A stretch of DNA of 64,000 nucleotides from an uncultured Methylococcaceae bacterium (lineage in GTDB: Bacteria; Pseudomonadota; Gammaproteobacteria; Methylococcales; Methylomonadaceae): assembly GCA_903917345.1 (NCBI GenBank), contig CAIXAE010000008.1, positions 1 to 64,000 of the forward strand, written 5' to 3'. Below the pieces are notes generated by a model. That model searched no databases. It saw only the letters and a list, made by a program, of their open reading frames with translations, and was not told where the DNA came from. Every line of letters begins with the position of its first letter. The stretch's first letter is position 1. A program made the translations under genes and the position numbers. Positions 44,736 through 64,000 of this stretch are shown one piece after another.

Positions 44736-44842
44736 ACGTCAATGAATCCTAATGTGTTATGAGTTAAAACAATGCGCGATTATACAAGGATTGAATACTT
44801 ATTTTTATAAAATATCAACTTCTCAAGTCGATGATTTTATGT

Positions 44843-45199: not shown

Positions 45200-45228
45200 A
45201 GGTGCTAAATATATAGTGTTTAATAGGG

Positions 45229-45714
45229 TTACGCTTTTTTCATGATGCGTTCTTTTTCGCGTTGCCAATCACGATCTTTAGATGTAGCGCGTTTATCGTG
45301 CAGTTGTTTACCTTTAGCTAACCCAATTTCTAATTTAGCACGACCCGTTTTCCAATACATTGAGAGCGGGATCAAGGTATAACCTTTACGCTCAACAGAA
45401 CCAATGAGTTTATTGAGTTCATGTCTATTCAACAGAAGTTTTTTATGTCTAATAGAATCAGGTTTGATATGGGTTGATGCAGATAGTAAAGCGGATATGT
45501 GCGCGCCTGATAACCAAGCTTCACCCCGTTTTAGTACAACGTAACTTTCTTTAAGTTGCACACGACCTTCACGTAAGCTCTTAACTTCCCAGCCTTCAAG
45601 TACTAATCCAGCTTCAAAACGCTCTTCAATAAAATACTCATGCTTAGCTTGACGATTAACGGCAATTGTCGCGTTCTGTTGAGTTTTATTTTTTTTGGAG
45701 TTTTTTTCAGCCAT
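45229..45714 (-). CDS. smpB: SsrA-binding protein SmpB
   Basis: A 161-residue tmRNA partner for rescue of stalled ribosomes. The conserved core is [20 protein letters not shown] near residue 15, [20 protein letters not shown] near 35 and [20 protein letters not shown] near 133. The basic C-terminal tail that enters the empty mRNA channel ends EKERIMKKA. The N-terminus is lysine-rich. No ssrA (tmRNA) gene was seen next to it. Confidence 0.97.
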
Positions 45715-45810
45715 AGGGAGTGGATATTAATTTTAAAACTGACGAGAGCGATTATTTTTGTTATTTTACTCGATATTATTAATAAGGTGAGTTTTTTGAG
45801 GCGCTCGTAA

Positions 45811-47172
45811 ATGATAGATACTAACACAACAGGACATGGAAAATGGTCTTCACGCTTTACCTATATTCTCGCTGCTACAGGATCTGCAGTCGGTTTAGGT
45901 AATATCTGGAAATTTCCATACATCACCGGAGAAAATGGTGGTGGTGCGTTTGTATTAGTTTACTTAGCATGTGTCCTAGTCATTGGTATTCCCATCATGA
46001 TGGCAGAAACAATGTTGGGACGTCGTAGTCAACGTAATCCTATCGAAGCGATGGAGTTATTAACTAAAGAAGCCAGTGCGGATAGCCATTGGCATTACTT
46101 AGGTTGGATGGGTGTTATCGCTGGTTTATTGATACTTTCATATTACAGTGTCATTGCGGGCTGGGCCTCAGCCTATGTGCTTAAAGCCTTTACCGGTAGT
46201 TTTATTGATGCTGATGCAACAGCCATCAAATCATTATTCGACAGTTTTGTAGGCAGTCCCATTCAGTTGATTTTTTGGCATACCTTATTCATGTTAGCGA
46301 CTATGGTTATCGTTGTTCGCGGTATCAATAATGGGCTAGAAAAAGCCGTGCAATATTTAATGCCCGCTTTATTTGTATTGATGTTCTTATTGGTCGCGTA
46401 TGCCATGACGACGGATAGTTACTTTAAAGGTTTGCACTTCTTATTCTCACCCGATTTTAGCAAGTTAACGGGTAATTCCGTTTTAACAGCGATGGGCCAT
46501 GCCTTTTTTACCTTGAGTTTAGGTATGGGAGCCATTATGGTTTATGGTTCTTACTTGTCTAAAGATATTTCAATTAGCAAAACAGTATACTTAATTGCGG
46601 GTGCCGATACTGTCGTTGCATTATTAGCAGGCATTGCCATATTCCCCATCGTGTTTGAAAATAATTTACACCCAAGCTCTGGCCCAGGCCTCATATTCGA
46701 AACCTTACCCATCGCTTTTGGTGCTATGACAGGCGGTTGGTTAATGGGTGTGTTGTTTTTTATAATGCTAGCGGTGGCTGCATTAACGTCATCAATATCA
46801 TTGATCGAACCTGCTGTAGCTTGGTTAGTTGAGAACAGAGGTTTTACTCGTGAAAAAGCGTGTCTATGGTCTGGTGGTGCAACATGGTTTCTGGGCTTAG
46901 GAACTGTGTTTTCATTTAATGTATGGTCAGATTTTAAGCTATTCGATAGAACCCTATTCCAGTTATTAGATTATTTAACAGCCAACTTGATGCTGCCCAT
47001 TGGTGGATTTTGTATTGCCGTATTTGCGGGCTGGATTATGAATGCAAAACATAGCGAAGAAGAATTGGCTATGCAAACACCAGCAGGCTTTCAAGTATGG
47101 AAACTATTGGTTAGCTATGTTGCTCCCGCAGCCGTTTTTTTGGTATTTCTGCATGTTATTGGGGTTTTATAG
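45811..47172 (+). CDS. neurotransmitter:sodium symporter family transporter
   Basis: A 453-residue, roughly 11- to 12-helix Na+-coupled transporter of the LeuT fold. The signature ATGSAVGLGNIWKFPYITGE near residue 21 continues NGGGAFVLVYL and includes the unwound first helix. HAFFTLSLGMGAIMVYGSYL near 230 is the helix-6 substrate region. Bacterial relatives carry amino acids such as tryptophan, tyrosine or leucine; the substrate here is not determinable. It is followed by ratA after one base, but functional linkage is unlikely. Confidence 0.92.
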   Translation: MIDTNTTGHGKWSSRFTYILAATGSAVGLGNIWKFPYITGENGGGAFVLVYLACVLVIGIPIMMAETMLGRRSQRNPIEAMELLTKEASADSHWHYLGWMGVIAGLLILSYYSVIAGWASAYVLKAFTGSFIDADATAIKSLFDSFVGSPIQLIFWHTLFMLATMVIVVRGINNGLEKAVQYLMPALFVLMFLLVAYAMTTDSYFKGLHFLFSPDFSKLTGNSVLTAMGHAFFTLSLGMGAIMVYGSYLSKDISISKTVYLIAGADTVVALLAGIAIFPIVFENNLHPSSGPGLIFETLPIAFGAMTGGWLMGVLFFIMLAVAALTSSISLIEPAVAWLVENRGFTREKACLWSGGATWFLGLGTVFSFNVWSDFKLFDRTLFQLLDYLTANLMLPIGGFCIAVFAGWIMNAKHSEEELAMQTPAGFQVWKLLVSYVAPAAVFLVFLHVIGVL

Positions 47173-47604
47173 ATGACTGTAGTTCAAAAGAGTGCATTGG
47201 TTAAGTTTTCTGCCTTACAGATGTTTGAACTCGTCAATAACATAGAAGATTATCCTAAATTTTTACCTTGGTGCAGTGGTAGTCGTATTATCAAAAGGGG
47301 TGATGATTTTGTAGAGGCAGAACTCATTATTTCTAAAGGTGGTTTTAACAAATCATTCTCAACCCGCAATAAAATCGATCCAGCGGGTGTGATTACAGTG
47401 TCTCTTTTAGATGGGCCATTTTCTTATTTAGAAGGCGTGTGGAATTTCCTCCCCTTAAGGGAAGATGCTAGCAAGATCTCTTTAGATTTAGAATTTGAGA
47501 TGTCAGGAAAACTTGCCAGTTTAGCGTTCGGCGTCGTGTTTAATCAAATATGCAACACCATGGTTACCTCTTTTACAGATAGAGCAAAGCAAGTCTATGG
47601 ATAA
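47173..47604 (+). CDS. ratA: RatA/Coq10-type START-domain protein
   Basis: A 143-residue START-like protein. Typical text is SALVKFSALQMFELVNNIED followed by YPKFLPWCSGSRI, and later GVWNFLPLREDASKISLDLE. In E. coli RatA (PasT) was reported to inhibit 70S formation or support respiration and persistence; Coq10 relatives bind ubiquinone. The pair ratA-rnfH is highly conserved in proteobacteria. Its stop overlaps the rnfH start by eight bases. Confidence 0.93.
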   Translation: MTVVQKSALVKFSALQMFELVNNIEDYPKFLPWCSGSRIIKRGDDFVEAELIISKGGFNKSFSTRNKIDPAGVITVSLLDGPFSYLEGVWNFLPLREDASKISLDLEFEMSGKLASLAFGVVFNQICNTMVTSFTDRAKQVYG

Positions 47605-47878
47605 TGGTTTTATTGAAGTAGAGGTGGTTTATGCCTTACCTCAGCAACAAATCATCAAAAGCGTGCAATTATCTGTTGGAATGACGGTACAAGAGGCTAT
47701 CAATTTATCGGGGTTAACAGATGCGTTTCCCCAGCTTTGCAAAGATCCACTCAATGTGGGAGTATTTGCAAAATCGTGTGAATTAGATCATGTGCTTAAT
47801 GATGGCGACAGAGTTGAAATCTATCGTCCGTTAATTCACGATCCCAAAGAAGCGAGAAGACTAAGAGCCAAAAAGTAA
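47597..47878 (+). CDS. rnfH: RnfH family ubiquitin-like-fold protein
   Basis: A 93-residue beta-grasp protein with FIEVEVVYALPQQQIIKSVQ at the start, VGVFAKSCELDHVLNDGDRV in the middle and EIYRPLIHDPKEARRLRAKK at the end, the family's strongest motif. The function is not settled; the name comes from Rnf clusters, though it is usually next to ratA as here. It overlaps ratA by eight bases. Confidence 0.93.
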   Translation: MDNGFIEVEVVYALPQQQIIKSVQLSVGMTVQEAINLSGLTDAFPQLCKDPLNVGVFAKSCELDHVLNDGDRVEIYRPLIHDPKEARRLRAKK

Positions 47879-47909
47879 GTGTTGGCTGTAAAGACTATTA
47901 AGATCGCTG

Positions 47910-48434
47910 TTATAAAGGCAAATTATCTGTATTAGATTTTGGGGCTTGTTCGGGCTTAGTGCTTCTTAATGGATTGTTAGTGGTATCTGGACTTAAAAGA
48001 CCAAACATCGTTGTTATTTTTTCCCACATGGTTTTATCAAGATCACGTTTAGGTACATCTACACTGGTTTCCTTTGCAGCTATAGGGCCAGTTACCGAAT
48101 TCGGTCTAAAATCACCTTGCACACCTACTACTACATCATTTTCAAAAAACAATGAAAATTGATGTTGAACTTTATCTTCACCGCTTGGTTGATTAATATA
48201 AATGTAATCCCAACGATTTTTATGAAATGTGTTTTCTGCCATAGGGGAGCCAAGAATATAAAGTACTTGTTTTTTACTCATACCCGGTTTTAATTGATCA
48301 ATCATACCTTGTTCGATAATATTCCCTTGCTGTATATCTACTCTGTAGATACCCGGTATGTGGTCATATAAATATGTACAAGATACGATGGATTGGCTAG
48401 CGATTAAGCTACAAAAAATAAGCGACTTTCTCAT
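47910..48434 (-). CDS. bamE: outer membrane protein assembly factor BamE
   Basis: About 174 residues. The start at 48434 gives a lipoprotein signal MRKSLIFCSLIASQSIVSC with a lipobox IVSC; longer readings add an unrelated hydrophobic stretch. The SmpA/OmlA domain includes VDIQQGNIIEQGMIDQLKPG, MSKKQVLYILGSPM and WDYIYINQPSGEDKVQHQFS. A Pro/Asn/Thr-rich tail of about 50 residues follows that is absent from E. coli BamE. It helps BamA and BamD insert barrel proteins at the outer membrane. Divergent from fur, as in other gammaproteobacteria. Confidence 0.93.
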   Translation of the reverse strand: MRKSLIFCSLIASQSIVSCTYLYDHIPGIYRVDIQQGNIIEQGMIDQLKPGMSKKQVLYILGSPMAENTFHKNRWDYIYINQPSGEDKVQHQFSLFFENDVVVGVQGDFRPNSVTGPIAAKETSVDVPKRDLDKTMWEKITTMFGLLSPDTTNNPLRSTKPEQAPKSNTDNLPL

Positions 48435-48499
48435 TGAAGACAGATCAAAAAATACAAAATAGAAATGATACAGGATGTTAATTAATAATCCTATAAAAG

Positions 48500-48533
48500 T
48501 ATCATGATAATTAGCCCTAAAAAAGGCTACAAT
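48500..48533 (+). promoter_or_regulatory. possible Fur box and -10 element upstream of fur
   Basis: TATCATGATAAT (48500-48511) matches two adjacent NATWAT hexamers of the Fur site at 11 of 12 positions. A third inverted hexamer is not clear. TACAAT (48528-48533) is a candidate -10, with a poor -35 lying inside the Fur-like sequence. Autoregulation of fur would be consistent, but the match is short in an AT-rich region. Confidence 0.35.
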
Positions 48534-48582
48534 AAACTCTCTTTTAAAATTCATCCCCTATGTGGCTAACTGAGGAATTCTT

Positions 48583-48999
48583 TTGGAAACTCATGATTTA
48601 AAGAATGCGGGTCTTAAGGTCACCATACCTAGACTTAAAATTCTGCAAATTTTGGAAAAACAGGTTAATGAGCGTCACCTTACTGCAGAGATGGTGTACA
48701 AAATTTTAATCAGTGAAAATGAAGAAATTGGTCTAGCAACAGTCTATAGAGTACTCACTCAATTTGAAGCCGCTGGCATCGTTACTCGTCATCATTTCGA
48801 AGGTGGTAATTCAATATTCGAACTAGATACGGGCGACCATCACGATCATATACTCTGTATGAAATGTGGAAAAGTTGATGAGTTCACAGATGAACTTATA
48901 GAGGTAAGGCAACAAGAAGTTGCTAGCCAACTGGGTTACGATCTCGTCGATCATGGTTTGTATTTATATGGATTTTGCCCGAAGTGCAGAAAACCTTAA
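48583..48999 (+). CDS. fur: ferric uptake regulator Fur, TTG start
   Basis: A 138-residue metalloregulator. The winged helix has NAGLKVTIPRLKILQILEKQ and EEIGLATVYRVLTQFEAAGI; metal ligands are in HHFEGGNSIFELDTGDHHDH, and cysteines CMKC and CPKC can form the structural zinc site. It represses iron-uptake genes when loaded with Fe(II). The start codon is TTG at 48583, supported by GAGGA six bases upstream and by exact agreement with the family N-terminus; no in-frame ATG is available nearby. Divergent from bamE. Confidence 0.96.
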   Translation: METHDLKNAGLKVTIPRLKILQILEKQVNERHLTAEMVYKILISENEEIGLATVYRVLTQFEAAGIVTRHHFEGGNSIFELDTGDHHDHILCMKCGKVDEFTDELIEVRQQEVASQLGYDLVDHGLYLYGFCPKCRKP

Positions 49000-49020
49000 T
49001 TAATCTTATTAATAGTATTC

Positions 49021-50268
49021 ATGTTTAAACCCCTCATTTTATATATCGGCTTACGCTATACGCGAGCCAAACGTCGTACACAATTCATTTCATTTATTAC
49101 CTTAACATCTGTACTAGGCATTGCCTTGGGGGTGACCGCACTGATTACAGTCTTATCTGTAATGAATGGTTTTGAAGCAGAGTTACGTGAACGTATTTTA
49201 GGCATGACCTCGCATGCGACAGCTACGGGTAAATTTGGTCAATTGGATGATTGGCAAACATTAGATAAAAAGCTAGTAGATTATCCGCATGTCCAAGGTT
49301 CTGCGCCTTTTATTACTGGGCAGGTAATGATTAATGCAGACAGACGCGTCAGCGGCACTATGCTCAACGGTATATTGCCAGAATACGAAGCTAAGGTATC
49401 AGATGTAGCAGCAAAGATGAAATACGGCCACTTAGCTGATCTTGTTCCTGGCGAATATGGCATCGTATTAGGATTAGAGTTAGCTAATTATTTGGGTGTG
49501 AGTATGGGTGACAAGATCACTGTGATCAGTCCACAAATCAACTCAACGCCTGCAGGCATAGTTCCTAGGATGAGACGCTTTACTGTGGTAGGTGTCTTTC
49601 AAGTCGGTATGTATGAATATGATCGTAATATGGCATTGATTCATCTTGATGACGCCGCCAAACTATTCCGTATGGATGCTGCTGTATCAGGCTTACGTAT
49701 TAAATTAGATGATCTATTTAATGCGCCACAAATAACACGCACTATGGCTAAAGCATTATCAAGCGACTACCAAGTCAGTGATTGGACCTTAGCGCACAGC
49801 AATTTCTTTAGAGCGATTCAAACAGAAAAACGCGTCATGTTTATTATTTTATTGTTGATTGTCGCCGTAGCGGCTTTCAATATTGTTTCTACTTTAGTGA
49901 TGGTCGTCACCGATAAACGGGGTGACATTGCTATCTTAAAAACCCAAGGTTTAACCTCAGGATCAATTATGGGCATCTTTATGGTGTTAGGTTCCATCAT
50001 TGGTGTGGTGGGGACGGCACTGGGTACAGTGGGCGGTATTTTGTTAGCTTTAAATGTGGAAACTATAGTGCCCGCTTTAGAACACCTATTTAATGTCCAG
50101 TTTATGGCGGCAGATGTTTACTACATCAGCGAATTGCCCTCTAAACTCGTATGGACTGATGTTTATTCAATTGCAGGCATGGCCTTCTTATTATCATTAT
50201 TAGCAACTATTTATCCCGCATGGCAAGCGTCTCGGATTAATCCAGCGGAGGTGTTACGTTATGAATAA
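49021..50268 (+). CDS. lolC: lipoprotein-releasing ABC transporter permease LolC/LolE family
   Basis: A 415-residue permease: one N-terminal helix, a large periplasmic domain (about residues 45-265) and three C-terminal helices. Signatures are [20 protein letters not shown] near residue 8, [18 protein letters not shown] near 45, and [20 protein letters not shown] near 310. With LolD it extracts mature lipoproteins from the inner membrane and passes them to LolA. Only one permease gene is present, so it may act as a LolF-type homodimer. It overlaps lolD by eight bases. Confidence 0.94.
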
Positions 50269-50938
50269 TACAATATTGACATGCCGCCAACTTACAAAGC
50301 GCTATGACCAAGGTGGTTTGGATGTAGACGTCCTTAAAGGTGTTGATTTAAGTATTCAAGTCGGCGAACGTGTGGCCATTATGGGTGCCTCAGGCTCGGG
50401 TAAAAGTACATTGTTACACCTATTAGGCGGATTAGATAAAGCCACCAGTGGTGAAGTGATATTGTCTGGTATTAATCTAAATAAAGTCAGTGCCATTAAA
50501 TTAGCGAAGTTAAGAAATAGATCTTTAGGTTTTATTTACCAATCGCACCATTTGTTGGGTGAATTCACTGTACTCGAAAACGTTGCGATGCCTTTATTGA
50601 TTGCGGGTGAATCGATAAAACAAGCGACTATAAGAGCAACTGAGTTACTTAAAAGAGTAGGCTTAGGGCACAGAATTGAACATAAACCGGGTGAGTTATC
50701 AGGTGGTGAAAGACAGCGTGCTGCAGTAGCAAGAGCTTTAATAAATAAACCTGGTTTAGTGTTAGCGGATGAACCTACGGGTAACTTGGACAGTAAAACA
50801 GCCGATCAAATTTACCAATTGATGCTGGAGTTAAATCAAGAATTACAGGTTAGCTTTTTAGTGGTCACCCATGATCATGAATTGGCGGCCCGTCTGGGTA
50901 AAGTGTTACATATGGAAGATGGTCTAATCGTCGGTTAA
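50261..50938 (+). CDS. lolD: lipoprotein-releasing ABC transporter ATPase LolD
   Basis: A 225-residue ATPase of the MacB-like group. Walker A is [18 protein letters not shown] near residue 43, the Q-loop [20 protein letters not shown] near 92, the ABC signature [20 protein letters not shown] near 147, Walker [17 protein letters not shown], and the switch histidine VTHDHELAA near 205. The LDEF-like [13 protein letters not shown] segment is typical of LolD. It energises the LolC permease it overlaps. Confidence 0.95.
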
Positions 50939-50962
50939 CGCCGCCTCAAACAAACTCACTGC

Positions 50963-51004
50963 ACCTCTTGGGGCGCTTTTAGCCCGCATAAACAAGAGGT
51001 AGCC
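50963..51004 (+). promoter_or_regulatory. hairpin sequestering the comEC ribosome-binding site
   Basis: ACCTCTTG (50963-50970) is an exact complement of CAAGAGGT (50993-51000), which contains the AGAGG Shine-Dalgarno sequence five bases before the comEC GTG at 51005. Directly inside, GGGC (50971-50974) pairs with GCCC (50982-50985) around a 7-base loop, leaving a 7-base bulge. The RNA would hide the ribosome-binding site. No T tract follows, so a terminator is less likely. Confidence 0.6.
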
Positions 51005-53266
51005 GTGATAATTTCTGCATTATGCTTTGTTGCTGGCATTTTATGCGTGCAACAGTTTTCTGAATTACCGGGTCTTTATTGGTTATTAATGATAACAATG
51101 GCAGGTCTTGTATTGGCCTGTTTACGTCATTGGCGCACTGTTTTTTTTATAATTGGGCTGCTATGGGCGGTTTTATTCGCCATGCAACGACTCGATGATC
51201 GCTTACCCACAACATTAGAAAGTATTGAAATCCCCGTTACAGGCGTTATAACTGATTTACCTGACCTCAATAAACAGCGTAGTACTTTCGATTTTAAGAT
51301 CACACAGTCTCCCTATAAACTCCCTCATAAAATTCGTTTAAGTTGGTACTATCCAGATCAAACGATCAAGTCTGGTCAAAAATGGTCATTTGTTGTTAAG
51401 TTAAAGCGACCTCATGGGAGTTTAAATCCGGGTGGATTTGATTATGAAAAATATTTGTTTAGCCAAGGGGTAGGGGCAACAGGCTACATACGTACCCAGA
51501 CTAAACCACTATTACTGGGGAGAGTGTCTGGATGGTTCAGTATTGCCGTGTGGCGACAAACAATTGCAGATGATTTGACCCAGTTGCTTCAGGGTAATTC
51601 GAGTCTAGGATTGATTAAAGCCTTAACCATTGGCGATGGGAGTGATATTTCTAAAACTAAATGGGATATTTTTAGAAAAACAGGCACGACGCATTTGGTC
51701 GTTATATCGGGTTCTCATGTAGGTTTGTTAGCTGGCTTGGCTTATTTATGGGTACTTAAGCTTTGGGCACGATTCGGGTATTTAAAATGGGCACCGCAAA
51801 CCATCGCCGCCATCAGTGCCATCATCGTGGCGACGCTTTATTCAGGCTTAGCCGGATTTTCAGTGCCCACGCAACGCGCACTCGTTATGTTAAGTGTATG
51901 GATGCTGTCAGTCATACTTCAGCGCAATTCTAAGCCATACAATACCTTAGCTTTATCATTATTTGCCGTACTGGCTTATGATCCTTTAGCGGTTTTATCG
52001 GTTGGGTTTTGGTTATCTTATTTAGCGGTAGGGTTGATTGTGTATGTTATTTCCGGACGTTTAGGAAAACATAATACCGTCATAGAAATGCTAAAAATAA
52101 ATGCAGCCACTTCGTTGGGTTTATCGCCCTTGTTGCTCATTTATTTTCAACAGATATCCGTTATTTCCCCCATTGCTAATTTTATAGCCGTGCCGTTGAT
52201 TAGTTTTCTATCGGTACCTTTGGCATTATTAGGTGTAGCAAGTATGGCGTTATCGCCTTGGCTTGCAATGCAATTATTTCAGATTACCGATGGTTCATTG
52301 CAGGTACTGATGGTGTTTTTAAACACCTGTGCTCAACTGCCCATGGCACTCTATACGCACGCACAACCCCCGTTTTGGTTATTACTGTTCACGGTGCCAG
52401 CCGTATTAATACTATTAGCACCGGTGGGTATGCCGTATCGATATTTGAGTGTGTTACTGTTTCTGCCGATGTTTGCATCGACTGCGGATAAACCTGCAGC
52501 AGGGTCTATAAAACTGACCGTATTAGATGTCGGGCAAGCATTATCGATAGTGATACAAACTCAGCAACATAGTTTGATCTTTGATGCGGGTAGCAAATAT
52601 TCAGAAGACAGTGATGCAGGCATTAGCACTTTACTGCCTTTTTTACGGTACGAAGGTATCAATACAGTTGATACGTTAATGATTAGTCATGCCGACAGTG
52701 ATCACATCGGTGGAGCCGCTTCACTCATAAAGGGTATTCCCGTTAAAGCCGTCCTTACGACAGCCATGCGTCAACTCCAAGACTATCAGCCAATAAAGTG
52801 TGAAGCGGGGCAAACATGGGAGTGGGATGCCGTGATGTTTAGGGTATTAGCGCCCATTACAGAGCTCAGCAGTGAGAACGACAATGCCTGTGTCTTACAA
52901 ATTAAAACGTTAACAACGAGCTATCTCTTGCCTAGTGATATAGAAGCCGAGGCAGAAACAGCGTTGATGACTAATTACGGGCAAGCATTAAAATCAGATG
53001 TGTTAATTGCGCCGCATCATGGCAGTAAAACATCATCAACACCGGCTTATTTAGCGGTGGTAGATCCAAAAGTTATTTTGATATCAGCGGGATATTTAAG
53101 TAAATTTGGACATCCGCATCCGGATGTTACACATCGATATCAACAGCAGGGGATTGAGTGGTTTAATACCGCAGAGCAGGGCGCATTAACCATCACTGAG
53201 CCAAACGATCATTGGCAAATAGAGGCAATGCGCACCACCGAAGGTAAATATTGGAACAATAAGTGA
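51005..53266 (+). CDS. comEC: DNA internalization/competence protein ComEC/Rec2
   Basis: A 753-residue inner-membrane channel for single-stranded DNA uptake. An N-terminal hydrophobic and OB-like region (DUF4131) is followed by the Competence domain with GLIKALTIGDGSDISKTKWD when read near residue 200, FRKTGTTHLVVISGSHVGLL, and a helix-rich core. The C-terminal metallo-beta-lactamase-like domain has LDVGQALSIVIQT, DTLMISHADSDHIGGAASLI and IAPHHGSKTSSTPAYL with the metal ligands intact, consistent with a nuclease role. It starts with GTG. Natural transformation also needs pilus genes not in this window. Confidence 0.93.
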   Translation: MIISALCFVAGILCVQQFSELPGLYWLLMITMAGLVLACLRHWRTVFFIIGLLWAVLFAMQRLDDRLPTTLESIEIPVTGVITDLPDLNKQRSTFDFKITQSPYKLPHKIRLSWYYPDQTIKSGQKWSFVVKLKRPHGSLNPGGFDYEKYLFSQGVGATGYIRTQTKPLLLGRVSGWFSIAVWRQTIADDLTQLLQGNSSLGLIKALTIGDGSDISKTKWDIFRKTGTTHLVVISGSHVGLLAGLAYLWVLKLWARFGYLKWAPQTIAAISAIIVATLYSGLAGFSVPTQRALVMLSVWMLSVILQRNSKPYNTLALSLFAVLAYDPLAVLSVGFWLSYLAVGLIVYVISGRLGKHNTVIEMLKINAATSLGLSPLLLIYFQQISVISPIANFIAVPLISFLSVPLALLGVASMALSPWLAMQLFQITDGSLQVLMVFLNTCAQLPMALYTHAQPPFWLLLFTVPAVLILLAPVGMPYRYLSVLLFLPMFASTADKPAAGSIKLTVLDVGQALSIVIQTQQHSLIFDAGSKYSEDSDAGISTLLPFLRYEGINTVDTLMISHADSDHIGGAASLIKGIPVKAVLTTAMRQLQDYQPIKCEAGQTWEWDAVMFRVLAPITELSSENDNACVLQIKTLTTSYLLPSDIEAEAETALMTNYGQALKSDVLIAPHHGSKTSSTPAYLAVVDPKVILISAGYLSKFGHPHPDVTHRYQQQGIEWFNTAEQGALTITEPNDHWQIEAMRTTEGKYWNNK

Positions 53267-53273
53267 TATTTGA

Positions 53274-54665
53274 TTACAGCTCTAATTTAAAACGTGCAGT
53301 TTTAATGGCTAATTGCACCGTGTCTGGCGCAGTACCACCAATATGGCTACGCGCCGCGACAGAACCTTCTAAACTAAGATAATCAAACACCTCTTCAGTG
53401 ATTAACGCAGAGAATTTTTGTAATTCTGCTAAAGAAATTTCAGATAAATCACGGCCCGTTTCAATGCCCAAGCGCACTGCCAGACCTACGACTTCATGCG
53501 CATCTCTAAACGCCATGCCTTTTCTGACTAAATAATCGGCCAAATCCGTAGCGGTAGCAAAGCCACGTTTAGCGGAGTTATACATGTTTTGTTTTTTAGC
53601 ACTGATATGCGGCACCATGTCAGCATAAGCGCGAAGGCAGTTGATTAAAGTATCAACCGTATCAAATAAAGGTTCTTTATCTTCTTGATTGTCTTTGTTA
53701 TAGGCTAACGGTTGGCTTTTCATTAACATCAGTAACGACATTAAATGTCCGGTCACCCGTCCTGATTTACCTCTCACTAACTCAGGCACATCAGGATTCT
53801 TCTTTTGCGGCATGATAGATGAACCTGTGCAAAAGGCATCCGGCATATCAATAAAGTCAAATTGAGCACTCGACCATAGAATAAGTTCTTCAGAAAAACG
53901 TGATAAATGCATCATGATGATACTGGCGGCCGCTGTAAATTCTATCGCAAAATCACGGTCACTCACAGAATCTAAAGAGTTAGCACTGGGGCGACTAAAA
54001 CCTAAGAGTTCTGCCGTTAGAAAACGATCAATAGGGTAGCTGGTACCGGCTAAAGCCGCGGCTCCTAAAGGCATTACATTAAGGCGTTTTTTACAGTCTT
54101 GTAAGCGCTCGTTATCACGCACTAACATTTCAAACCACGCCATTAAATGGTGGCCAAAGGTAATCGGTTGAGCGACTTGTAAATGCGTAAACCCCGGCAT
54201 GATAGTGTTATAGTTTTGCTCAGCTAAATCTAAAATAGCACGTTGTAAACGCTTGAGTTGGGCTGTGATTTGTTCAATCTCACTGCGTAAATACAAGCGA
54301 ATATCAGTCGCCACTTGGTCATTTCTGGAACGGCCGGTATGGAGCTTTTTACCGGCAATGCCAATTAAATCAGTCAAACGCGCTTCGATGTTCATGTGGA
54401 CATCTTCTTGTTTGATAGACCACACAAAAGCACCGCTTTCAATTTCTGACTGTATTTGGCTCAGACCCTTAATAATGTCATCTCGTTCCGCGTCAGTCAA
54501 AATGCCACATTTTGTGAGCATCGTGGCATGTGCAATAGAACCTTGGATATCTTGTTCTGCCATACGTTTATCAAAATCCACAGAAGCAGTAAAGACTTCA
54601 ACAAAGGCATCGGTGGCTTGGGCAAAACGGGCACTAGAAAGTTTTTCTGAGTTAACGGTAGTCAT
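53274..54665 (-). CDS. argH: argininosuccinate lyase
   Basis: A 463-residue fumarase/aspartase-superfamily enzyme that releases arginine and fumarate from argininosuccinate. Signatures are [20 protein letters not shown] near residue 109, [20 protein letters not shown] near 157, and the catalytic loop [20 protein letters not shown] near 279. Length is standard. It converges on comEC with a 7-bp gap. Upstream, 54739-54754 holds a short inverted repeat (GTTGTGT / ACACAAC), too weak to name as an operator. Confidence 0.97.
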
Positions 54666-54801
54666 GAATAGTTAAGAGTGATGTGAAGATTGTGCGAATT
54701 ATAACATCTAATATAAGACTGTGATTTTACCCAACACTGTTGTGTACACACAACCTGCACAGTAAATGATTTAGCGCGTTTGAATTAATAAATCCGCGCG
54801 G

Positions 54802-55200
54802 GTAGTTAGTTAAGGAACGTCAGTAGTAGTTGCGCCTCCTTAGGTAGTAACCTAAGCGCCGTAGGTAGTTACTGCCGATCCTAAAGTAGTTACCTAAGCG
54901 GCTTAAGTAGTTAGTGCTGGACTCAAAGTAATTACCCCTGCATCTTGGGTTATAACTGCACCAGCTCAAGTAGTAACATAAGAAACGTAGGTTGTTACTT
55001 TTCGATTCTAAGTAATTACTCTAACCCCATAGGCTGTTAGTTTCACAATAGAAGTAGTTACCTAAGCGGCTTAACGTGTAACGCCCAGATCCTAATGAGA
55101 TACCCAAGCACCTTAAGTAGTAAGATCGCCGGCAAAAGTAGTTACTTTCGATTTAGGAGTTGTTACTCCAGACGCTAAAGCTGTAACTGAAGCTGCGGCT
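54802..55200. repeat. array of 19 imperfect 21-bp tandem repeats
   Basis: Nineteen contiguous units of exactly 21 bp, with no insertion or deletion, fill this stretch. Most units start GTAGTTAC or a one- or two-base variant and end near CTTAA or CTAAA; the middle varies. Units 5 (54886-54906) and 13 (55054-55074) are identical. Read on the plus strand in phase, units give V-V-T-x-x-x-K/Q-like heptads but contain 15 stops, almost all TAA/TAG at heptad positions 4 and 7. On the minus strand the phase gives [LF]-[RS]-x-x-[GS]-[NY]-[YN] with three stops. The array begins 137 bp upstream of argH. Function unknown. Confidence 0.93.
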
Positions 55201-55222
55201 GCTAATTGATTGATGCATATAG

Positions 55223-55555
55223 TTACTTGATAGTTTTAGCGTCTGCATCTTGTGTGATGTCTAGGGCAATGTTGTGCATTTCAGTGATGCGTTTAACAGT
55301 CTCTAAGAGCAGTTTGTTGCTGCCAGACGTTAAATGACCCTCAAAAGGCGAAGCCGGCACTAAAGTTTCAGCCTCGTTATCAAAATCCCATTCAAAGATG
55401 GGGTTTAAAACTGAAACCATCGGCACTTCCCCATCCATAGTCGATATGATAAACACGTTACCGTTTCCATACTTTAAGGCATTATCAATTAAGTTGTAGA
55501 GCAAGCGCGTTAGTGTAACTATTTTAAAACGCAATGTGGGTAGATTAGTATCCAA
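55223..55555 (-). pseudogene. C-terminal remnant of a sensor histidine kinase
   Basis: About 110 codons from a TTG, with a stop directly upstream, so no N-terminal sensor or dimerisation domain is present. TRLLYNLIDNALKYGNGNVF near residue 16 is a clear N-box of a HATPase domain. The later glycine boxes are eroded: where GxGLGL is expected the text is SGSNKLLLETVKRITEMHN. It therefore cannot be a normal kinase and is best read as a decayed fragment, although a small ATPase-like protein cannot be excluded. Confidence 0.65.
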
Positions 55556-55557
55556 TC

Positions 55558-56048
55558 AATAATGCAGGAGATTTTAAGGCTGCGTATAAACACTATTTAG
55601 CCCGGGCTACGATGGAAGGTTAGCCAGAAGAAAACTTTGTGGCCCAATATCGAGCAGGTAAAGTGGCTTTGTTGCTGAATAAGCCTTATACGGAAATACT
55701 TACGTGTTTTTTAACAGCCTATGAGATGCGCCCCGAAGTGTTACTGAACCGTTGTATCAATTAGCTGTGTATTGCCGTAATAAGGCATGGCATCACCAAG
55801 CGTATTTATTTGCTAAGGCAGGCGCTGATATTGCGTATCCGACTGATGTGTTATTTGTAGAAAAAGACATATGCGAATGGCGCATTTTTGATGAGCTGGC
55901 GATTGCGGCTTATTGGACGGGCCATTATGTGGAATCAAAAAAACTCTGTGAAAAGTTATTGGCTATGCCCTTGGCGGCTGATGATGCGGAACGTGTTCGA
56001 GAAAATCTGCAGTTTGCGCTAGAGAAGCTAACAGTGTTTAAGGTTTAA
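55558..56048 (+). pseudogene. remnant of a TPR-type glycosyltransferase gene
   Basis: Two reading frames together encode one homologous stretch: NAGDFKAAYKHYLARATMEG, then an in-frame TAG at about 55621-55623 where a tryptophan is expected, then PEENFVAQYRAGKVALLLNK up to AYEMRPE. A one-base frameshift near 55740-55750 leads to EPLYQLAVYCRNKAWHHQAY and DELAIAAYWTGHYVESKKLC. This is the tetratricopeptide tail of large family-2 glycosyltransferases; the catalytic domain is missing. The intact part from 55752 could still be translated as a 98-residue peptide, but an inactive remnant is more likely. Confidence 0.75.
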
Positions 56049-56053
56049 TTTTA

Positions 56054-56269
56054 ATGATTATAAAAACGCGTTATTCCTATTATTTAGCTATTATTCTCAT
56101 AGCCTTTTTTGTAGTGATATCAGCCTCAAGTGTTTGGCAAAAATCAACCACGTGGGATGAGCCTTTTCACTTAACTGCGGGTGTTACGCAATTACAAACC
56201 GGTGATCCCCGTTTAAGTTTTGACCACCCGCCGCTTGCCCGGATTATAGCGGCTATTAAGTTTATGTAA
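56054..56269 (+). pseudogene. N-terminal fragment of a GT-C (PMT/ArnT-like) glycosyltransferase
   Basis: Seventy-one codons with one membrane helix (about residues 9-29) and the first periplasmic-loop motif of GT-C enzymes: STTWDEPFHLTAGVTQLQTG followed by DPRLSFDHPPLARIIAA. The aspartate-glutamate pair in WDEP is the usual metal/catalytic site. A normal protein would have about 500 residues; here a TAA ends it and the downstream sequence is unrelated and AT-rich. Clear truncation, starting five bases after the previous remnant. Confidence 0.78.
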
Positions 56270-56310
56270 CTAAAGTGAAAAACATCAATCCTTTTGGTTT
56301 TTTATCTTTA

Positions 56311-56436
56311 CTGTTTAGGAAACTGAAAATTCCAATTGGGAAAATGGATTTACCAAGTATAAAAAGCTTTTTTCCAAGTGGGATTTTGCTTTTCCTACTT
56401 AGGGATTTTACTTTTCCTAAGTGGATCGGATATTTC
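56311..56436. repeat. short degenerate array with about 21-bp period
   Basis: At least five units start with CC at 56332, 56353, 56374, 56394 and 56416 (spacing 21, 21, 20, 22), with a weaker unit before. Shared text is CCAAGTGGG or CCTAAGTGG with GGGATTTTxCTTTTCCTA seen twice. Read on the minus strand (part of an open frame at 56262-56540) the units give heptads KSKIPLG, KKLFILG and KSIFPIG. The surrounding 56270-56591 is otherwise AT-rich with no recognisable gene. Confidence 0.7.
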
Positions 56437-56591
56437 GGGTTAAAAATTAAATATTTTTTAAAAAGGTGTAAATAAACTTTTTTATGATGTATTTGAGGCC
56501 TTAGATAAGGCCGATCTAGCATGAATGTATAGTCTGCCATACTAGAATTAGCTTGATATCGTAAACCTCAAGTGTGTTGCTTCTAATAATT

Positions 56592-58079
56592 TTAATCCTT
56601 ACTCGGTACATTCAATGGGATGGGTAAGAATTGTTGCCATTTAATACTGCCCCCTGCTTGATCTTTAGTCGGTAAATCGGTTTTATGCCAACCGCCGCCT
56701 AAGGCTTTAATCAATAGTACCGCCGCACTTAATCGTTGGCCTTGTAGATTAACGGCCGTAATCTCATTATTAAGTGCTGTCACTTGATTAACCATCACAT
56801 TCAAGTAACTCACTGTACCCGCTTCATATTGGTTAGTCGTTAATTTTACCGCCTCATTTGCGGCGGAAACAGCCTGAGTTTGCACCTTAATTTCTGCATC
56901 TAGGATTCGCAGTGCGGCCAAATTATCTTCAATTTGTTGAAAGCTCGTTAAGATGGCTTGTCGATAGCCGGCTACACTGGCATCGTACGTGTCAATCGCT
57001 GACTGTAGCACGGCACTTCTAGCACCCCCATCAAATATCGGTATGGCTAATGCCGCGGGGCCTAAAGCCCAATAACGCGCACTTTGATTGGCAACCGTTG
57101 ATAACAAAGTCGATTGTTGGCCATCAGAAGCCGCCAGATTTAAATTAGGAAAGTAAGCCGCTTTCGCAACCCCAATTTGAGCGTTGGCGGCTGCCACAGT
57201 GCGTTCTGCAATAGCAATATCGGGCCTACGTTCTAGTAATTGTGACGGTATTGTCATGGGAATTGCGGGTATAGCCGTAGTAAGTGGGCTCTCGGCTATA
57301 CTGAGTTCTTTTGGCGCTTTACCGATTAATACGGCAATAGCATGTTCTAATTGTGCCCGTTGTATCGTTAAGTTAATGGCTTGTGCACGCGTGGATTCTA
57401 ATTGGGTTTGTGCTTCAACTATGTCAGATTTAGCTGCAATGCCGGCTTCGTAACGGTTTTGTATAATCGTTAATGTTTTTTGATAAGTGGCTACCGTATC
57501 GTTTAAGAGTTTTATTTGGGTGTCTAGCGTTCTAATTTGAAAATAATTTTGGGCAACTGTGGCTTGGCTGGTTAAGCGTAAGGCGTGTAAGGTGGCTGCT
57601 CTTGATTGGGCGGTTGCGATACTGGATTCAGTTTGTCTCCGTAAGCCACCAAAGATATCGGGTGCCCAGGCCACACTGACTACGCCACCAAATAAGTTTC
57701 TAACTCCACTCACCGCAACACTTTGTCCACTAGCGGCTTTAAATCGATTAGTAGTTGCCGTGGCTGATGACGTTGGAAAGTAGGCTGATGTTGCTGATTG
57801 CACCATCGATTGCGACATTTTATATTGTGACTCGGCTTGGGCTATCGATTGATTGCCGGTATTAACCTGAGCTTCTAGTGCATTTAATTGTTGGTCTTTA
57901 AAGAGTTCCCACCATTGATCGTTACTAAAGGCTTCAGCGGGTTCTGCTTGTTTAAATCCAGCCAGCTCTTTATAGGTGTCTGGAATAACTGATTTAGGGA
58001 TTTCATAATCAGGTCCAACGGCACAGGCCGTGAGTTGAGCCGTTATCAATAAATAAAGTGGCGATAGGATAAATTTCAT
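56592..58079 (-). CDS. OprM/NodT-type outer-membrane efflux lipoprotein
   Basis: A 495-residue TolC-like channel. The signal ends at a lipobox LTAC (about residue 19) followed by AVGPDYEIPKSVIPDTYKE, the usual start of NodT-family lipoproteins. Two copies of the long coiled-coil OEP domain follow, with segments such as NRYEAGIAAKSDIVEAQTQL near 205, LLERRPDIAIAERTVAAANA near 280 and NQYEAGTVSYLNVMVNQVTA near 410. It should form the exit duct for the two RND pumps encoded just upstream in the same operon (14-bp gap). Confidence 0.92.
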   Translation of the reverse strand: MKFILSPLYLLITAQLTACAVGPDYEIPKSVIPDTYKELAGFKQAEPAEAFSNDQWWELFKDQQLNALEAQVNTGNQSIAQAESQYKMSQSMVQSATSAYFPTSSATATTNRFKAASGQSVAVSGVRNLFGGVVSVAWAPDIFGGLRRQTESSIATAQSRAATLHALRLTSQATVAQNYFQIRTLDTQIKLLNDTVATYQKTLTIIQNRYEAGIAAKSDIVEAQTQLESTRAQAINLTIQRAQLEHAIAVLIGKAPKELSIAESPLTTAIPAIPMTIPSQLLERRPDIAIAERTVAAANAQIGVAKAAYFPNLNLAASDGQQSTLLSTVANQSARYWALGPAALAIPIFDGGARSAVLQSAIDTYDASVAGYRQAILTSFQQIEDNLAALRILDAEIKVQTQAVSAANEAVKLTTNQYEAGTVSYLNVMVNQVTALNNEITAVNLQGQRLSAAVLLIKALGGGWHKTDLPTKDQAGGSIKWQQFLPIPLNVPSKD

Positions 58080-58093
58080 AAGACGAGTGGCGG

Positions 58094-61000
58094 CTAAACG
58101 GTTTGATTATCTATAACGGGGTGTCGATTAATGAAGCGACGATTGACCCATAGTCGAAAGTTATCTAAATAAATGTAAACAACAGGCGTCGTGTATAAGG
58201 TAAGTATTTGACTAAAAATTAAGCCGCCCACGATTGAAATACCTAATGGCTGGCGTAATTCGGCACCATAACCACTGCCTAAGGCCAAGGGTAAAGCGCC
58301 GAGCAAGGCTGCGAGGGTTGTCATCATAATAGGTCTAAAACGTAATAGGCAGGCTTTATAGATAGCCTCTTTTGGATTTAGTTGATGTTTACGTTCTGCA
58401 AATAAGGCAAAGTCTATCATCATAATAGCGTTCTTTTTTACGATTCCAATCAACAATATCACGCCTATCAACGCAATTATACTAAATTCAGTTTTACACG
58501 CCATTAGGGCTAACAAAGCGCCAACACCTGCGGATGGGAGTGTAGATAAGATGGTAATGGGGTGGATGTAACTTTCGTACAAAACACCTAGCACTATATA
58601 GATACAGGCGAGTGCGGCTAAGATTAAATAAGGTTGATTGCGCAGAGAGTCAATAAAGGCTTTGGCATTACCCTGAAAACTCCCTTGTACCGCGTTGGGC
58701 ACATTGATATCTTGCATGGTTTGCTGGATTATTTGAGTGGCTGTTGATAACGATGTCCCCTGATTTAGGCTAAACGATAAGGTAGCAGCAGCAAATTGGC
58801 TTTGATGATTAATTGATAGGGGCGTATTGCTTGGCGCAAAGCTAGTAAAATCTGATAAGGGCACGGTATGCATCGCAATTACGGTACCTGACGGTGACGT
58901 TGTGGCGGGTACGTTGATATAAATCTGTTTAAGCGCTTCTGGACTTTGCCAATACTCGGGCGCTAATTCCATCACTACGCGATATTGATTTAAAGGGTTA
59001 TAAATAACGGAGACTTGGCGTTGGCCAAAGGCGTTGTTTAGTGTGGTATCTATCATCGCTTGGCTAATACCATAGCGAGCCGCGAGAGTACGATCAACAA
59101 TCAGTTCAACTTGTTGACCTTTATCTTGTTGACTGGTATGGACATCCAGTAGTTCTGGGTGTTGGGATAGGGCGTTGATTAATTTAGGCAACCACTCCCT
59201 CAGTAATCCTAAGTCATCTGATTGCAAGGTAAAGTCATAGGAGCCGAATGATTGGCGTCCTCCAAGCCGTAATTCTTGTGCAGGAGAGACATGCAATTTT
59301 GCACCGGGTATGCGTTTAACGGCTTTGTTTAAGCGCTCATTAACAACTTCTATGGCCTCTCGTTCATCATGAGGTTTGAGTACGATAAAGATTCTTGCAC
59401 TATTGCCACTAGATCCAGACCCACTAAAGCCCGCTACGGTGACTACGGCAGGGTCTTGCATGAGTATTTCTGAAAACTCAGCGAGTTTTTTTTGCAGACT
59501 GACGAATGAGGTACCTTGATCCGTTTGAATCTCACCCATCAAACGACCACCGTCTTGTGACGGAAAAAAACCTTTGTCTATTACCGAGTATAGATAAATA
59601 TTAAGGCCTATCGTGCTGAGCAGTATTAACAGCATAATACGACCATGGTTAAGGGCCCAGCCTAATGATCTTTCATAATACGTTTGTACTCTATCAAAGA
59701 GCTTTCCAATATTATGATAAATTCGACCGTGTGTTTGCGAGCCTTTTCCTAACCAACGCGCACAAAGCATGGGTGTAACGGTTAATGAAACGATTAGCGA
59801 AACCACTACGGCGGCTGACAAGGTGACAGCAAATTCTCTAAATAAACGCCCAACAATGCCCCCCATTAATAAGATGGGTAAAAAGACGGCTATCAAGGAT
59901 AAACTCATCGCTGTTACAGTAAAGCCGACTTCTTTTGTGCCGACTAAGGCCGCTTTAAAAGGCGGCATGCCTTTTTCGATATGTCGTTTAATGTTTTCCA
60001 ACACCACGATGGCATCATCTACAACAAAGCCGGTTGAGATGGTCAACGCCATTAGGGTGAGATTATTAATACTGTAATTAAAAAAATACATCACACCGCA
60101 CGCACCGATTAAAGACACTGGGACAGCGATGATGGGCACTAATGATGAATGAAAATCCCTTAAGAAAACGAGTACCACTAAAATAACTAGTACGATGGCC
60201 AATAGTAAATTGCGTTCAACCTCTGTAATGGAAGCTCTAATGGTTTGTGAGCGATCGATGACTAAAGAAAGATCCACATTATGTGGGATAACCGCTTTAA
60301 GCTCAGGTAATAAGGCTGTCACTTGATCAACCGTTTCTATCACGTTAGCTTGGGGTTGTTTTCTTATGATGAGTAAAACCGCAGGGGTGCCATTTTTAAT
60401 ACCGGTATTTCTTAGATCCTCCACAGAATCAACGACCTTACCAATGTCCCCCATCGTTACGGGGGAGCCGTTTTGATAACTTACAATTAATGGCAAGTAG
60501 TCTGCGGCTTTACGAGCTTGATCATTCGCTAGTATTTGCCAACGTTCAGCACTGTCTTCTATGATCCCTTTTGGGCGAGAGAGATTCGTTTGGTTAATTG
60601 TTTTGCGGACATCTTCTAAGCTGATGCCATATTTATTAAGGGCATTGGGATTTAATTCAACACGTACAGCGGGTAAAGAGGCGCCACCGACCTGGACTTG
60701 TCCGATACCAGGAATCTGGGACAATTTTTGAGCTAATACAGTGGATGCAATGTCATACATTTCACCTTTACTTACCTGCGATGAGGTTAACGATAATACA
60801 AGAATAGGGGAGTCTGATGGATTATCGCGTTTATAAGTGGGTCTATTGGGCATGGTAATGGGCAATAAACTTGCCGCCGCATTGATGGCGGCTTGCACAT
60901 CACGGCATGCGCCATTGATGTCTCTATCCAGATCAAATTGCAGAGTGATTTGAGTATTTCCTAATGAACTACTGGAGGTCATTTCTGTTATACCCGCAAT

Positions 61001-61219
61001 ACGCCCCAGTGTTCTCTCTAAAGGCGTAGCCACCGAACTGGCCATTGTTTCTGCACTTGCCCCGGGTAGTTGCGCTTGTACATTTAAGGTGGGGAAATCC
61101 ACTTGCGGTAATGAAGCAACGGGGAGGTGGTAGTAAGCTATAGTACCCGCTAACGCTATAGCAAACGTGAGTAACGTGGTTGCTACGGGTCGATTAATGA
61201 ATAATGCCGATAAATTCAT
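58094..61219 (-). CDS. mdtC: RND multidrug efflux pump, MdtC-type
   Basis: A 1041-residue inner-membrane proton-driven pump. Helix 1 and the following [20 protein letters not shown] region are typical, as is the proton-relay segment [20 protein letters not shown] near residue 398 with its Asp-Asp pair. The second half repeats the fold ([60 protein letters not shown]). Its start overlaps the stop of the upstream pump by four bases. Close similarity to that neighbour indicates the MdtB-MdtC heteromeric arrangement, in which substrates such as bile salts, novobiocin or metals are typical. Confidence 0.9.
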
Positions 61220-64000
61220 GCGTTACGGAAGTATTTAGCCAATTTATCCATGCCTAAGTAAATCACCGGTGTGGTGTATAAGGTGAGTAATTGACTGACT
61301 AATAAGCCGCCTACCATGGCAATGCCCAATGGATGACGTAATTCAGAACCTACACCTGTCCCTAGCATGAGCGGTAAAGCGCCTAATAAAGCAGAAAGCG
61401 TTGTCATTAAAATAGGTCGAAAACGCAATAAGCACGCTTGGTAAATGGCCTCCCTAGGGGGCATGTTTTGTTGTCGCTCTGCTTCTAAGGCGAAATCTAT
61501 CATCATAATGGCATTCTTTTTTACAATACCAATTAATAGAATAATGCCGATAATGCCAATAATGCCTAAATCGGTATTTGAAATCATCAAGGCTAATAGA
61601 GCGCCCACACCCGCAGAGGGTAGGGTGGATAAAATGGTAATAGGGTGAATATAACTCTCGTATAATACGCCTAAAACAATATACACAGTAATAATAGCGG
61701 CCAAAATGAGCCATAAAGTGTTATTAAGAGACGCTTTAAAGGCTAATGCGGCCCCTTGATAACTTGTGCGAATACTGATGGGTAGATTGATATTTTCTTT
61801 TACGCGATCAATCGCTTTAACGGCATCTCCTAGTGAAGCATTTGATGCTAAATTAAAAGATACCGTGGCTACGGGGAATTGTTCTAAATGATTAACGGCG
61901 AGTGAAGTCGGTTTTTCAGATATATCGGCAATCGCTAACAAAGGGACTTGCGTACCGTTAGTTGAGGTTATGCGTAAGTCCTTTAAATTATCAGGTGATT
62001 GCTGATCTTTAGGATCAACTTCGAGTACGACTCGATATTGATTAGATTGGGTAAATATAGTCGATACCAAGCGTTGCCCATAAGCACTGTATAGGGTGTT
62101 ATCAATTGCGGCCGTGCTAACCCCCAGTCTACTTGCTGTTGGTCGATCGATATTGATATAAATTTGCTGGCCTTTATCTTGCACATCACTACTGACATCG
62201 ATTAACGCAGGTTCACTGGCTAGTGCTTCAACAAGACGTTGCGTCCATAGATTGAGTTCTTTGATGTCGGGTGTTTCTAAGGTGAATTGATATTGCGTGC
62301 GACTGACCCTGTTCTCCATGGTTAAATCTTGTACCGGTTGCAAATACAACGCCACATCGGGTAATGATGAGAGTGTATTTTTTAAACGGACAATCACTTC
62401 GCTGGCTGATTCCTTTCGCGCCGCATGCGGTTTTAGATTAATTAAAAAACGGCCATTATTCGGTGTCGTATTCACACCATCTACGCCAATAAAAGAAGAG
62501 AGGTTATCGACTGCTGGATCTTCTAAAATCAACTTGCCGATTTTTTGTTGATAGTCTGACATGGCCGTAAACGACACACTTTGGGGTGCAACAGTTATAC
62601 CTTGAATGACGCCTGTATCCTGAATGGGGAAGAAGCCTTTTGGGATGACTATATATAAAAGAGTGGTTAAAGCCACTGTGCCAAAGAACACGCTTAGGGT
62701 GAATCTTTCATGTTGCAGTACCCACGCTAAGCTTTTGCCGTATGACGCAATAATTTGTTCAAACCAAGAAATGGGTTTAGCCCCGTTGTTGTCTGCTTGA
62801 TGTGGTTGAGCTTTGAGTAATTTTGCGCACATCATCGGTGTTAAGGTGAGTGATATAACGGCAGAAATTAGGATGGCTACAGCCAATGTAATCGCAAACT
62901 CTCTAAATAATCTGCCGACTACTTCGCTCATAAATAGCAAGGGGATGAGTACGGCGATTAAAGAAAAAGTTAACGAGATTATGGTAAAGCCAATTTGTTC
63001 TGAACCTTTAAGTGCGGCTTTTAAAGGGGATTCGCCACGCTCTATGTAACGCGATATATTTTCAATAACCACGATAGCATCATCCACCACAAAGCCAGTG
63101 GCAATGGTTAGCGCCATGAGTGTTAAATTATTGATGCTAAATCCAGCTAAATACATGAAGGCGAAAGTGCCCACTAATGATAAAGGCACCGCTACACTGG
63201 GAATAAGCGTGGCAGGGATATTACGTAAGAATAGAAATATCACCATCACCACAAGCACAATGGCTAATAATAATTCAAACTGCACATCGTGTATCGAAGC
63301 GCGAATGGTTACGGTTCTATCCGTTAAAGGAATGACATCAATACTAAGGGGCAGAGAGGCTTTTATCTTGGGTAATAGTTCATTGATACTATCAACTACT
63401 TCAATTACGTTAGCGCCAGGTTGGCGTTGAATATTGACTATAACTGCCGAATGATCATTAGCCCAAGCCGCTAACTTTACGTTTTCTGCGCTGTTAACTA
63501 CTTCAGCCACTTCAGCTAACCTAACTGGAGCGCCATTACGATAAGCGACTATTAAATTTTTATAATCTTCTGGTGAGCGAATTTGGTCATTACTATCAAT
63601 AATTGCCGATCGTAATGGGCCGTTAAACATGCCTTTGGGTTGATTAACATTTGCCGCTGCAATGACTGTTCGAACATCTTCTATGCCAATGCCGTAAGCT
63701 GCAAGCGCTTTATGATTGACTTGGATACGTATAGCTGGCCGTTGGCCCCCACTAATACCGACTAAGCCAACGCCAGGCAGTTGGGCAATTTTCTGTGCTA
63801 ACCGCGTATCGACTAAGTCTTCAACTTTATATAACGGTAGCGCATTGGAGGTGATTGCGAGCGTCATGATAGGCGTATCCGCAGGGTTTACCTTACTGTA
63901 GATAGGTGCTTGCGGTAAGTCTGTCGGTAAAAAATTAGTGGCTGCGTTTATAGCGGCTTGTACTGACTGTTCTGCAATGTCTAAATTTAAATTAAGATTA
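61216..64000 (-). CDS. mdtB: RND multidrug efflux pump, MdtB-type, N-terminus beyond window
   Basis: The gene runs off the right edge: the reading frame stays open to 64000 with clear RND sequence before the first internal ATG at 63867 ([20 protein letters not shown], then [20 protein letters not shown]). About 928 residues are visible; roughly 110 are missing. Present are [20 protein letters not shown] (proton relay), [20 protein letters not shown] and [20 protein letters not shown]. It is the first of the two pumps in this operon; an MdtA-like periplasmic adaptor is expected just beyond the edge. Confidence 0.9.

Follow-up and report, generated by a model that had tools for sequence, protein, structure and literature searches.

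A tandem array of 21-bp units beside argH raises the question of what keeps the spacing of a repeat whose letters vary so strongly, and whether the array is peculiar to its locus or belongs to something more widespread. The window (the whole stretch of DNA analysed, 64 kb in length) contains the following features around it.

53274..54665, minus strand: argH, with its start codon facing the array across 136 bp
54802..55200, no strand assigned: tandem array of 19 x 21-bp units with a 42-bp superperiod (from the split into units, lag identity and a symmetry test)
55223..55555, minus strand: histidine-kinase-like ATPase fragment (HATPase_c, E 0.0023, under the curated cut-off)
56054..56269, plus strand: short ORF of 71 aa from the ORF list, ending just before the second array-like stretch
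56277..56470, no strand assigned: tentative second AT-rich array-like stretch with approximate edges (lags 21/22/42; dyad symmetry p 0.004)

Split into units, positions 54802-55200 give 19 consecutive 21-mers (399 bp). Each unit was compared, at shifts from -3 to +3, with a profile built from the remaining 18, and shift 0 was the best register for 19 of 19, which bears out the perfect register described in the initial annotation. Units 5 and 13 are identical, as reported there, and are the sole identical pair. The mean pairwise identity of the units is 0.51. Units of 21 bp at this level of identity, without a long repeat/spacer division, agree with the earlier statement that this is not a CRISPR array, and the same 51% lends no support to a recent expansion, which had been offered as one explanation of the even spacing.

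Identity at lag 21 is 0.476 over the 399 bp of the array, compared with a window average of 0.275 (s.d. 0.030), taken over segments of 399 bp in 50-bp steps with the array included. Lag 42 gives a higher value (0.555), indicating that two unit types alternate with a superperiod of 42 bp. Tandem Repeats Finder called just the first part of the array (54818-54936), with a period of 42 bp. Units 1, 2, 18 and 19 score 18.0, 12.6, 20.1 and 12.7 against the unit profile and the 21-mers immediately flanking the array score -8.5 and -19.1; this drop just outside 54802-55200 shows that the ends are correct. The consensus, GTAGTTACTTCAGCACCTTAA, has a near-palindromic core (GTARYTAC), columns 9-16 of the unit are variable, and the reverse-complement symmetry of the array is greater than in column-permuted controls (p 0.008). 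Both this symmetry and the stronger 42-bp superperiod had been missed in the initial annotation.

The stretch at ~56277-56470 may be a second, weaker and more worn array. Its identity at lags 21, 22 and 42 is 0.50 each; the rest of the window, with the main array excluded, reaches at most 0.46, 0.43 and 0.47. Short ORFs reach up to 56269 on the kinase-fragment side of the main array, and the 71-aa ORF at 56054..56269 gave no Pfam match above cut-off.

The nine closest ArgH proteins in the named genomes searched are all from Methylococcales records (82-88% identical), and the source of the window is therefore a methanotroph relative. In a DNA search with positions 54500-55600, 27 of 40 other genomes matched, solely in the argH end or the kinase fragment, and no array was seen at the argH site in these relatives. 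None of the ORFs upstream of argH in 20 relatives (one of which had 255 bp upstream and no ORF) matched window positions 44001-64000 at E 1e-5, and the relatives had argH-upstream neighbours in common with one another.

A protein query made from the window array, with X at stops, found one more site in the source genome, on contig C45 (E 5e-5); at E 1e-3 its matches were solely in this genome (1 of 41). The C45 array also has 19 units, one of them of 20 bp. They occur in both orientations, with 31-nt arms that are 90% complementary, and in dyad symmetry 0 of 1000 column permutations were as good. The array ends ~160 bp before an open 179-codon gene, whose product has an fn3-like domain at the C-terminus. 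Scored against a profile of both arrays, the window array reaches 84 for six units as its reverse complement and 110 on the plus strand; among the sequences scanned, the best score outside the window and C45 arrays is 5.8. A sequence-only model built from both arrays was searched in 41 genomes and gave weak matches outside the source genome (best E 0.003), and through these, arrays with the same architecture and different sequence were found in sister species. In most sister arrays the repeat is 42 bp long, with 21 bp as a weaker subperiod. One array sequence family was found by DNA search in 4 of 35 genus genomes (2-8 matches each), another in 6 of the 35. Repeats of 45 bp with an alanine-coding look by eye mimic the array in model searches (L168, L141/L169); two matches of model R1 (G016:C235, G008:C177) were repeats of this kind and were set aside. 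Arrays of the CCTTAAG family (L198, L200, L201, L163) carry on one side a flank that by eye resembles AAACCTTGGTTTTTTATG.

The gene beside the C45 array is one of many copies, and arrays are frequent next to them. A total of 42 fn3-like loci were tested (8 of 50 were left out as duplicates), using 800 bp flanks, lags 14-65, at least 300 bp of upstream sequence and thresholds set on control segments. A tandem signal lies within 800 bp upstream in 30 of 39 fn3-like loci, versus a signal at any lag in 7 of 289 controls (800-bp segments taken at other loci), two of the seven being at lag 42. The top lag in the 30 loci was 42 in 16, 21 in five, 40 in four, 63 in three and 41 in two. Downstream arrays, with top lags of 20-62, were found at 8 of 38 loci, including 4 of the 9 that are negative upstream. 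Fisher p values are 6e-28 upstream and 6e-5 downstream, figures that overstate independence, as the loci include orthologs. Five of the 42 loci (L218, L234, L248, L249, L257) have no array in their testable flanks. The association recurs in a later, partly overlapping set of same-genus loci (upstream array at 13 of 17, cut-off 0.52), in the source genome (an array on at least one side of 9 of the 11 copies examined, out of 14), and in another family of the order, where the proteins are ~30% identical and 3 of the 5 loci that have 300 bp or more upstream carry 22/44-bp arrays. The downstream arrays of L241, L242, L244 and L246 have periods of 20/40/60 or 62 bp, and the two 62-bp arrays tested among them are without dyad symmetry.

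Of 28 loci measured, 27 gave an array end, which lies 46-529 bp (median 244) before the start codon. A promoter-like box, TATACTCA, stands 40-44 bp before the start in 9 of the 28, between array and gene, placing the array upstream of the apparent promoter and thus probably outside the transcript of the gene at these loci. Other arrays, including that of the window, stand without such a gene: there is no fn3-like gene within the 64 kb window, and an array without one is found upstream of queF at 3 of 28 loci with enough sequence, the other 25 being without an array.

The protein encoded beside the C45 array matches fn3 in its C-terminal part at E 7e-4, below cut-off. Another copy reaches E 1e-5, above it, and 2 of the 5 copies scanned pass the curated Pfam cut-off. 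The five array-associated proteins scanned in Pfam match solely fn3-like families and lack a Nop domain; NCBIfam gave no match for four copies, and 0 of 5 matched the PADLOC anti-phage defence profiles. For the N-terminal part of ~100 residues, searches with the copies tested gave no match in Pfam, NCBIfam, PHROGs or PADLOC. The protein is like fn3-domain proteins of unknown function in its C-terminal part and differs from them in its N-terminal part. PHROGs also gave tail-protein matches (E down to 2e-6); they fall at or close to the fn3 end and are read as a resemblance to fn3/Ig-like domains. The best PDB match is titin, in a list mostly of fn3-bearing proteins. The gene is present in 23 of 35 genus genomes, with 14 matches in the source genome and 20 in G011. 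A query with a sister protein found it in 18 of 201 Methylococcales genomes (3 of 48 genera) and in 1 of 398 sampled Pseudomonadota genomes, which is the source genome. By eye, across 16 loci that were not annotated, no common neighbour was seen. Carriage by plasmids or phage was considered and rejected, as there was no plasmid or phage match and none was confirmed in viral contigs.

Unit sequences differ widely between loci, and what recurs is a module of 20-22 bp, often paired (40-44 bp) or tripled (60-63 bp) and in some cases quadrupled. This module corresponds to two helical turns, and there are ~7-20 of them in the arrays examined. Dyad symmetry was significant (p <0.05) in 28 of 34 tests on 33 arrays, one of which was tested in two parts, with array ends and periods set by hand; four of the six tests without it were on 20/40/62-bp arrays. 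The initial annotation had proposed that spacing is constrained at two helical turns, and retention of the module at dozens of sequence-divergent loci supports this.

Conservation of period without conservation of letters is seen most clearly beside near-identical genes. The source-genome locus L243 (G000:C10) is 90-95% identical in gene and flank to L228 (G013) and L229 (G010), and their arrays are dissimilar. For G013 the similarity spans 1631 bp with gene and promoter at 95% identity and does not continue into the array. The array alignments with the source genome score 22 (G013) and 26 (G010), near a background in which 95% of distant pairs score <=24, yet all three arrays have a 42-bp period. 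The far flank differs in G010, and the G013 contig begins inside the array. It is as possible that the gene moved to another array at these loci as that the array was replaced. In other near-identical pairs the arrays are alike. Strict coevolution of protein and array was considered and found unsupported, given some near-identical proteins beside unrelated arrays and a weak correlation (rho 0.21) between protein identity and array similarity over 378 non-independent pairs. A simple code of one protein for one array is thus not supported.

Curved, AT-phased DNA was also rejected as a general property. L213, L214 and L245 looked right by eye, and AT/GC periodicity of ~10.5 bp was significant in 12 of 39 arrays (controls, 30 of 296). 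In the window array, A/T periodicity at 10-10.5 bp has a power of 0.42, below the 99% shuffle limit of 1.66.

Our preferred explanation is that the window array is an orphan of a dispersed Methylococcales family of intergenic, helically phased arrays that act as protein-binding platforms. We consider the combined statement evenly balanced between right and wrong. Its parts differ in standing: the window array very probably belongs to the dispersed family, and the binding mechanism is a tentative proposal to which we give somewhat less than an even chance. Modules of two helical turns with the usual reverse-complement symmetry would each form a dyad site on the same helix face, and the fixed two-turn spacing, in front of promoters, of dyads that read alike in either orientation points to DNA acting as the platform for a dimeric protein. 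This protein would occupy successive dyads on one helix face, and the bound dimers might build a cooperative nucleoprotein array upstream of the promoter, which could serve as a silencing, insulating or anchoring platform. A phased protein-binding platform was among the possibilities raised in the initial annotation and is the one that we retain; binding, the identity of the protein and the role of the complex are inferred, whereas the architecture and dispersion of the arrays, their link with the gene and their place upstream of a recurrent promoter-like box are shown. The loose distance between array and gene, the non-dyad arrays, the array-less loci and the sparse AT periodicity count against a platform, as do the 28/56-bp lags downstream of one gene, the lack of an fn3-like gene in the window, the coding-like conservation in frame 1 (second codon positions most conserved, third least) and the ORFs over sister arrays of one family.

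Bacterial minisatellites or VNTRs and REP-type dispersed palindromes are intergenic, dispersed, tandem, fast evolving and partly palindromic. The arrays might be selfish or inert minisatellites that grow by slippage and unequal exchange and are carried by fn3-like cassettes, their period reflecting the copying mechanism and not any use. The unrelated arrays beside near-identical genes would fit, as would orphan arrays such as those upstream of queF (3 of 28 loci) and homogenisation, with lag-42 identity in the best 105 bp reaching 0.93-0.99 in L220, L228, L235 and L243. However, plain slippage predicts neither convergence of divergent sequences on 20-22 bp modules nor dyads in 28 of 34 tests, and the window array has kept 19 exact units though identity averages 51%. 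Unlike minisatellites and REP elements, the arrays hold their module across differing sequences and are tied to one gene family. The initial annotation had named an inert satellite with no constraint on spacing as the contrary case; the arrays are indeed scattered, but their spacing is kept, and we regard a minisatellite as unlikely. Decay of a heptad-repeat protein gene (VVTxAPx) that gained stops after loss of function, also raised there, is disfavoured and we judge it most unlikely. Frame 1 does read as VVT heptads with its last ~30 codons stop-free, its column information by codon position (6.1, 7.1 and 4.1 bits) is coding-like, and ORFs of 74-158 codons span sister arrays of the ACGTAACG family. 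Against this, the same frame contains 15 stops (10 TAA, 4 TAG, 1 TGA) in 136 codons, the unit, being near-palindromic, yields a similar pattern on the minus strand, and the protein matches at E 1e-3 are confined to a single genome. A coding remnant was dropped on account of stops at heptad position 7 in 9 of 19 units and of sister periods not divisible by three; with periods such as 20, 40, 41, 44 and 62 bp, a codon frame cannot be what generally sets the spacing. ORFs of 109-145 codons are also predicted over the sister arrays L173, L175, L177, L178 and L179, on one strand. As for a self-complementary structured RNA transcribed from the array, another possibility raised in the initial annotation, G022_C353 folds far better than shuffles (z -10.3 and -14.6), and some other sister arrays also do better than shuffles. 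Yet the window array gives only -1.5 and -0.7, z is positive on both strands in 3 of the 14 arrays tested, the promoter-like box separates array from gene at 9 of 28 loci, and Rfam gave 0 matches at gathering score in seven loci (six with arrays, the window array included). Such an RNA is in our view highly improbable.

The nearest functional analogues are plasmid centromeres and iterons, and the nearest architectural ones TIGR arrays. Replication iterons have repeats nearer 20 bp. Plasmid centromeres (parC of ParMRC, with 10-bp repeats; parS of the pSM19035 omega protein; tubC) and iterons are described as tandem short repeats with fixed spacing upstream of an operon, some overlapping promoters, to which proteins bind as dimers, wrapping the DNA or lining up along it (PMC5016525). 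The arrays share with them the tandem short repeats, fixed spacing and upstream position given in that account (PMC5016525), and in the window array tandem sites occur at helical spacing, 19 of 19 units being in register at 21 bp. Unlike plasmid centromeres, they are chromosomal, with many loci of differing sequence per genome, and the associated proteins tested match solely fn3 and no partition protein. TIGR arrays, as described in PMC12045711, have two alternating repeat types, lie up- or downstream of the gene and vary in sequence between loci, all of which is seen here. A TIGR-type guide-RNA array with short spacers, transcribed and processed and with the fn3-like or another protein as partner, would also suit the 42-bp double unit, which is within the lengths described for TIGR-Tas arrays and fits repeats of 8-12 nt with spacers of 9-12 nt (PMC12045711). 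However, although columns 9-16 vary in the window array, several sister arrays (L220, L228, L235 and L243, with their lag-42 identity of 0.93-0.99) have no variable spacers, periods of 40, 41 and 62 bp also occur, and the associated proteins tested show a weak fn3 match, no Nop domain and no PADLOC match (0 of 5). Because several arrays are without variable spacers and the proteins tested include no Nop-domain partner, the arrays were not filed as TIGR, and this origin is highly unlikely.

An extension of the platform reading is that the many-copy gene, with its unnamed N-terminal domain and fn3, forms a new kind of two-part module in which each copy typically has its own hypervariable dyad array, selection acting on the architecture of the array and not on its sequence. 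We consider this somewhat doubtful. Such a module could be a diversifying DNA-recognition system with orthogonal protein-array pairs, as in plasmid incompatibility; alternatively, it could be a platform in which structure is read. The window would then hold one, perhaps two, orphan arrays. No report of these arrays or of their pairing with the gene was found in open-licence papers, a source that makes this weak evidence of novelty. If the association holds beyond these genomes, it describes a dispersed DNA element conserved in length and not in letters, and provides a many-copy gene family of methanotroph relatives with a cis-partner that can be tested. Varying in sequence around one helical module, the arrays also form a natural series for studying how cooperative DNA-binding assemblies read spacing.

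Two further loci show repeats in other settings. At L276 (G047) one fn3-like gene is followed downstream by a repeat of 28/56 bp, a period that does not fit multiples of 20-22. At L192 (G011:C250), array-like sequence at 1351-1590 that reads LRYVIN continues in frame into a fragment of an fn3-like gene, reaching its interior.
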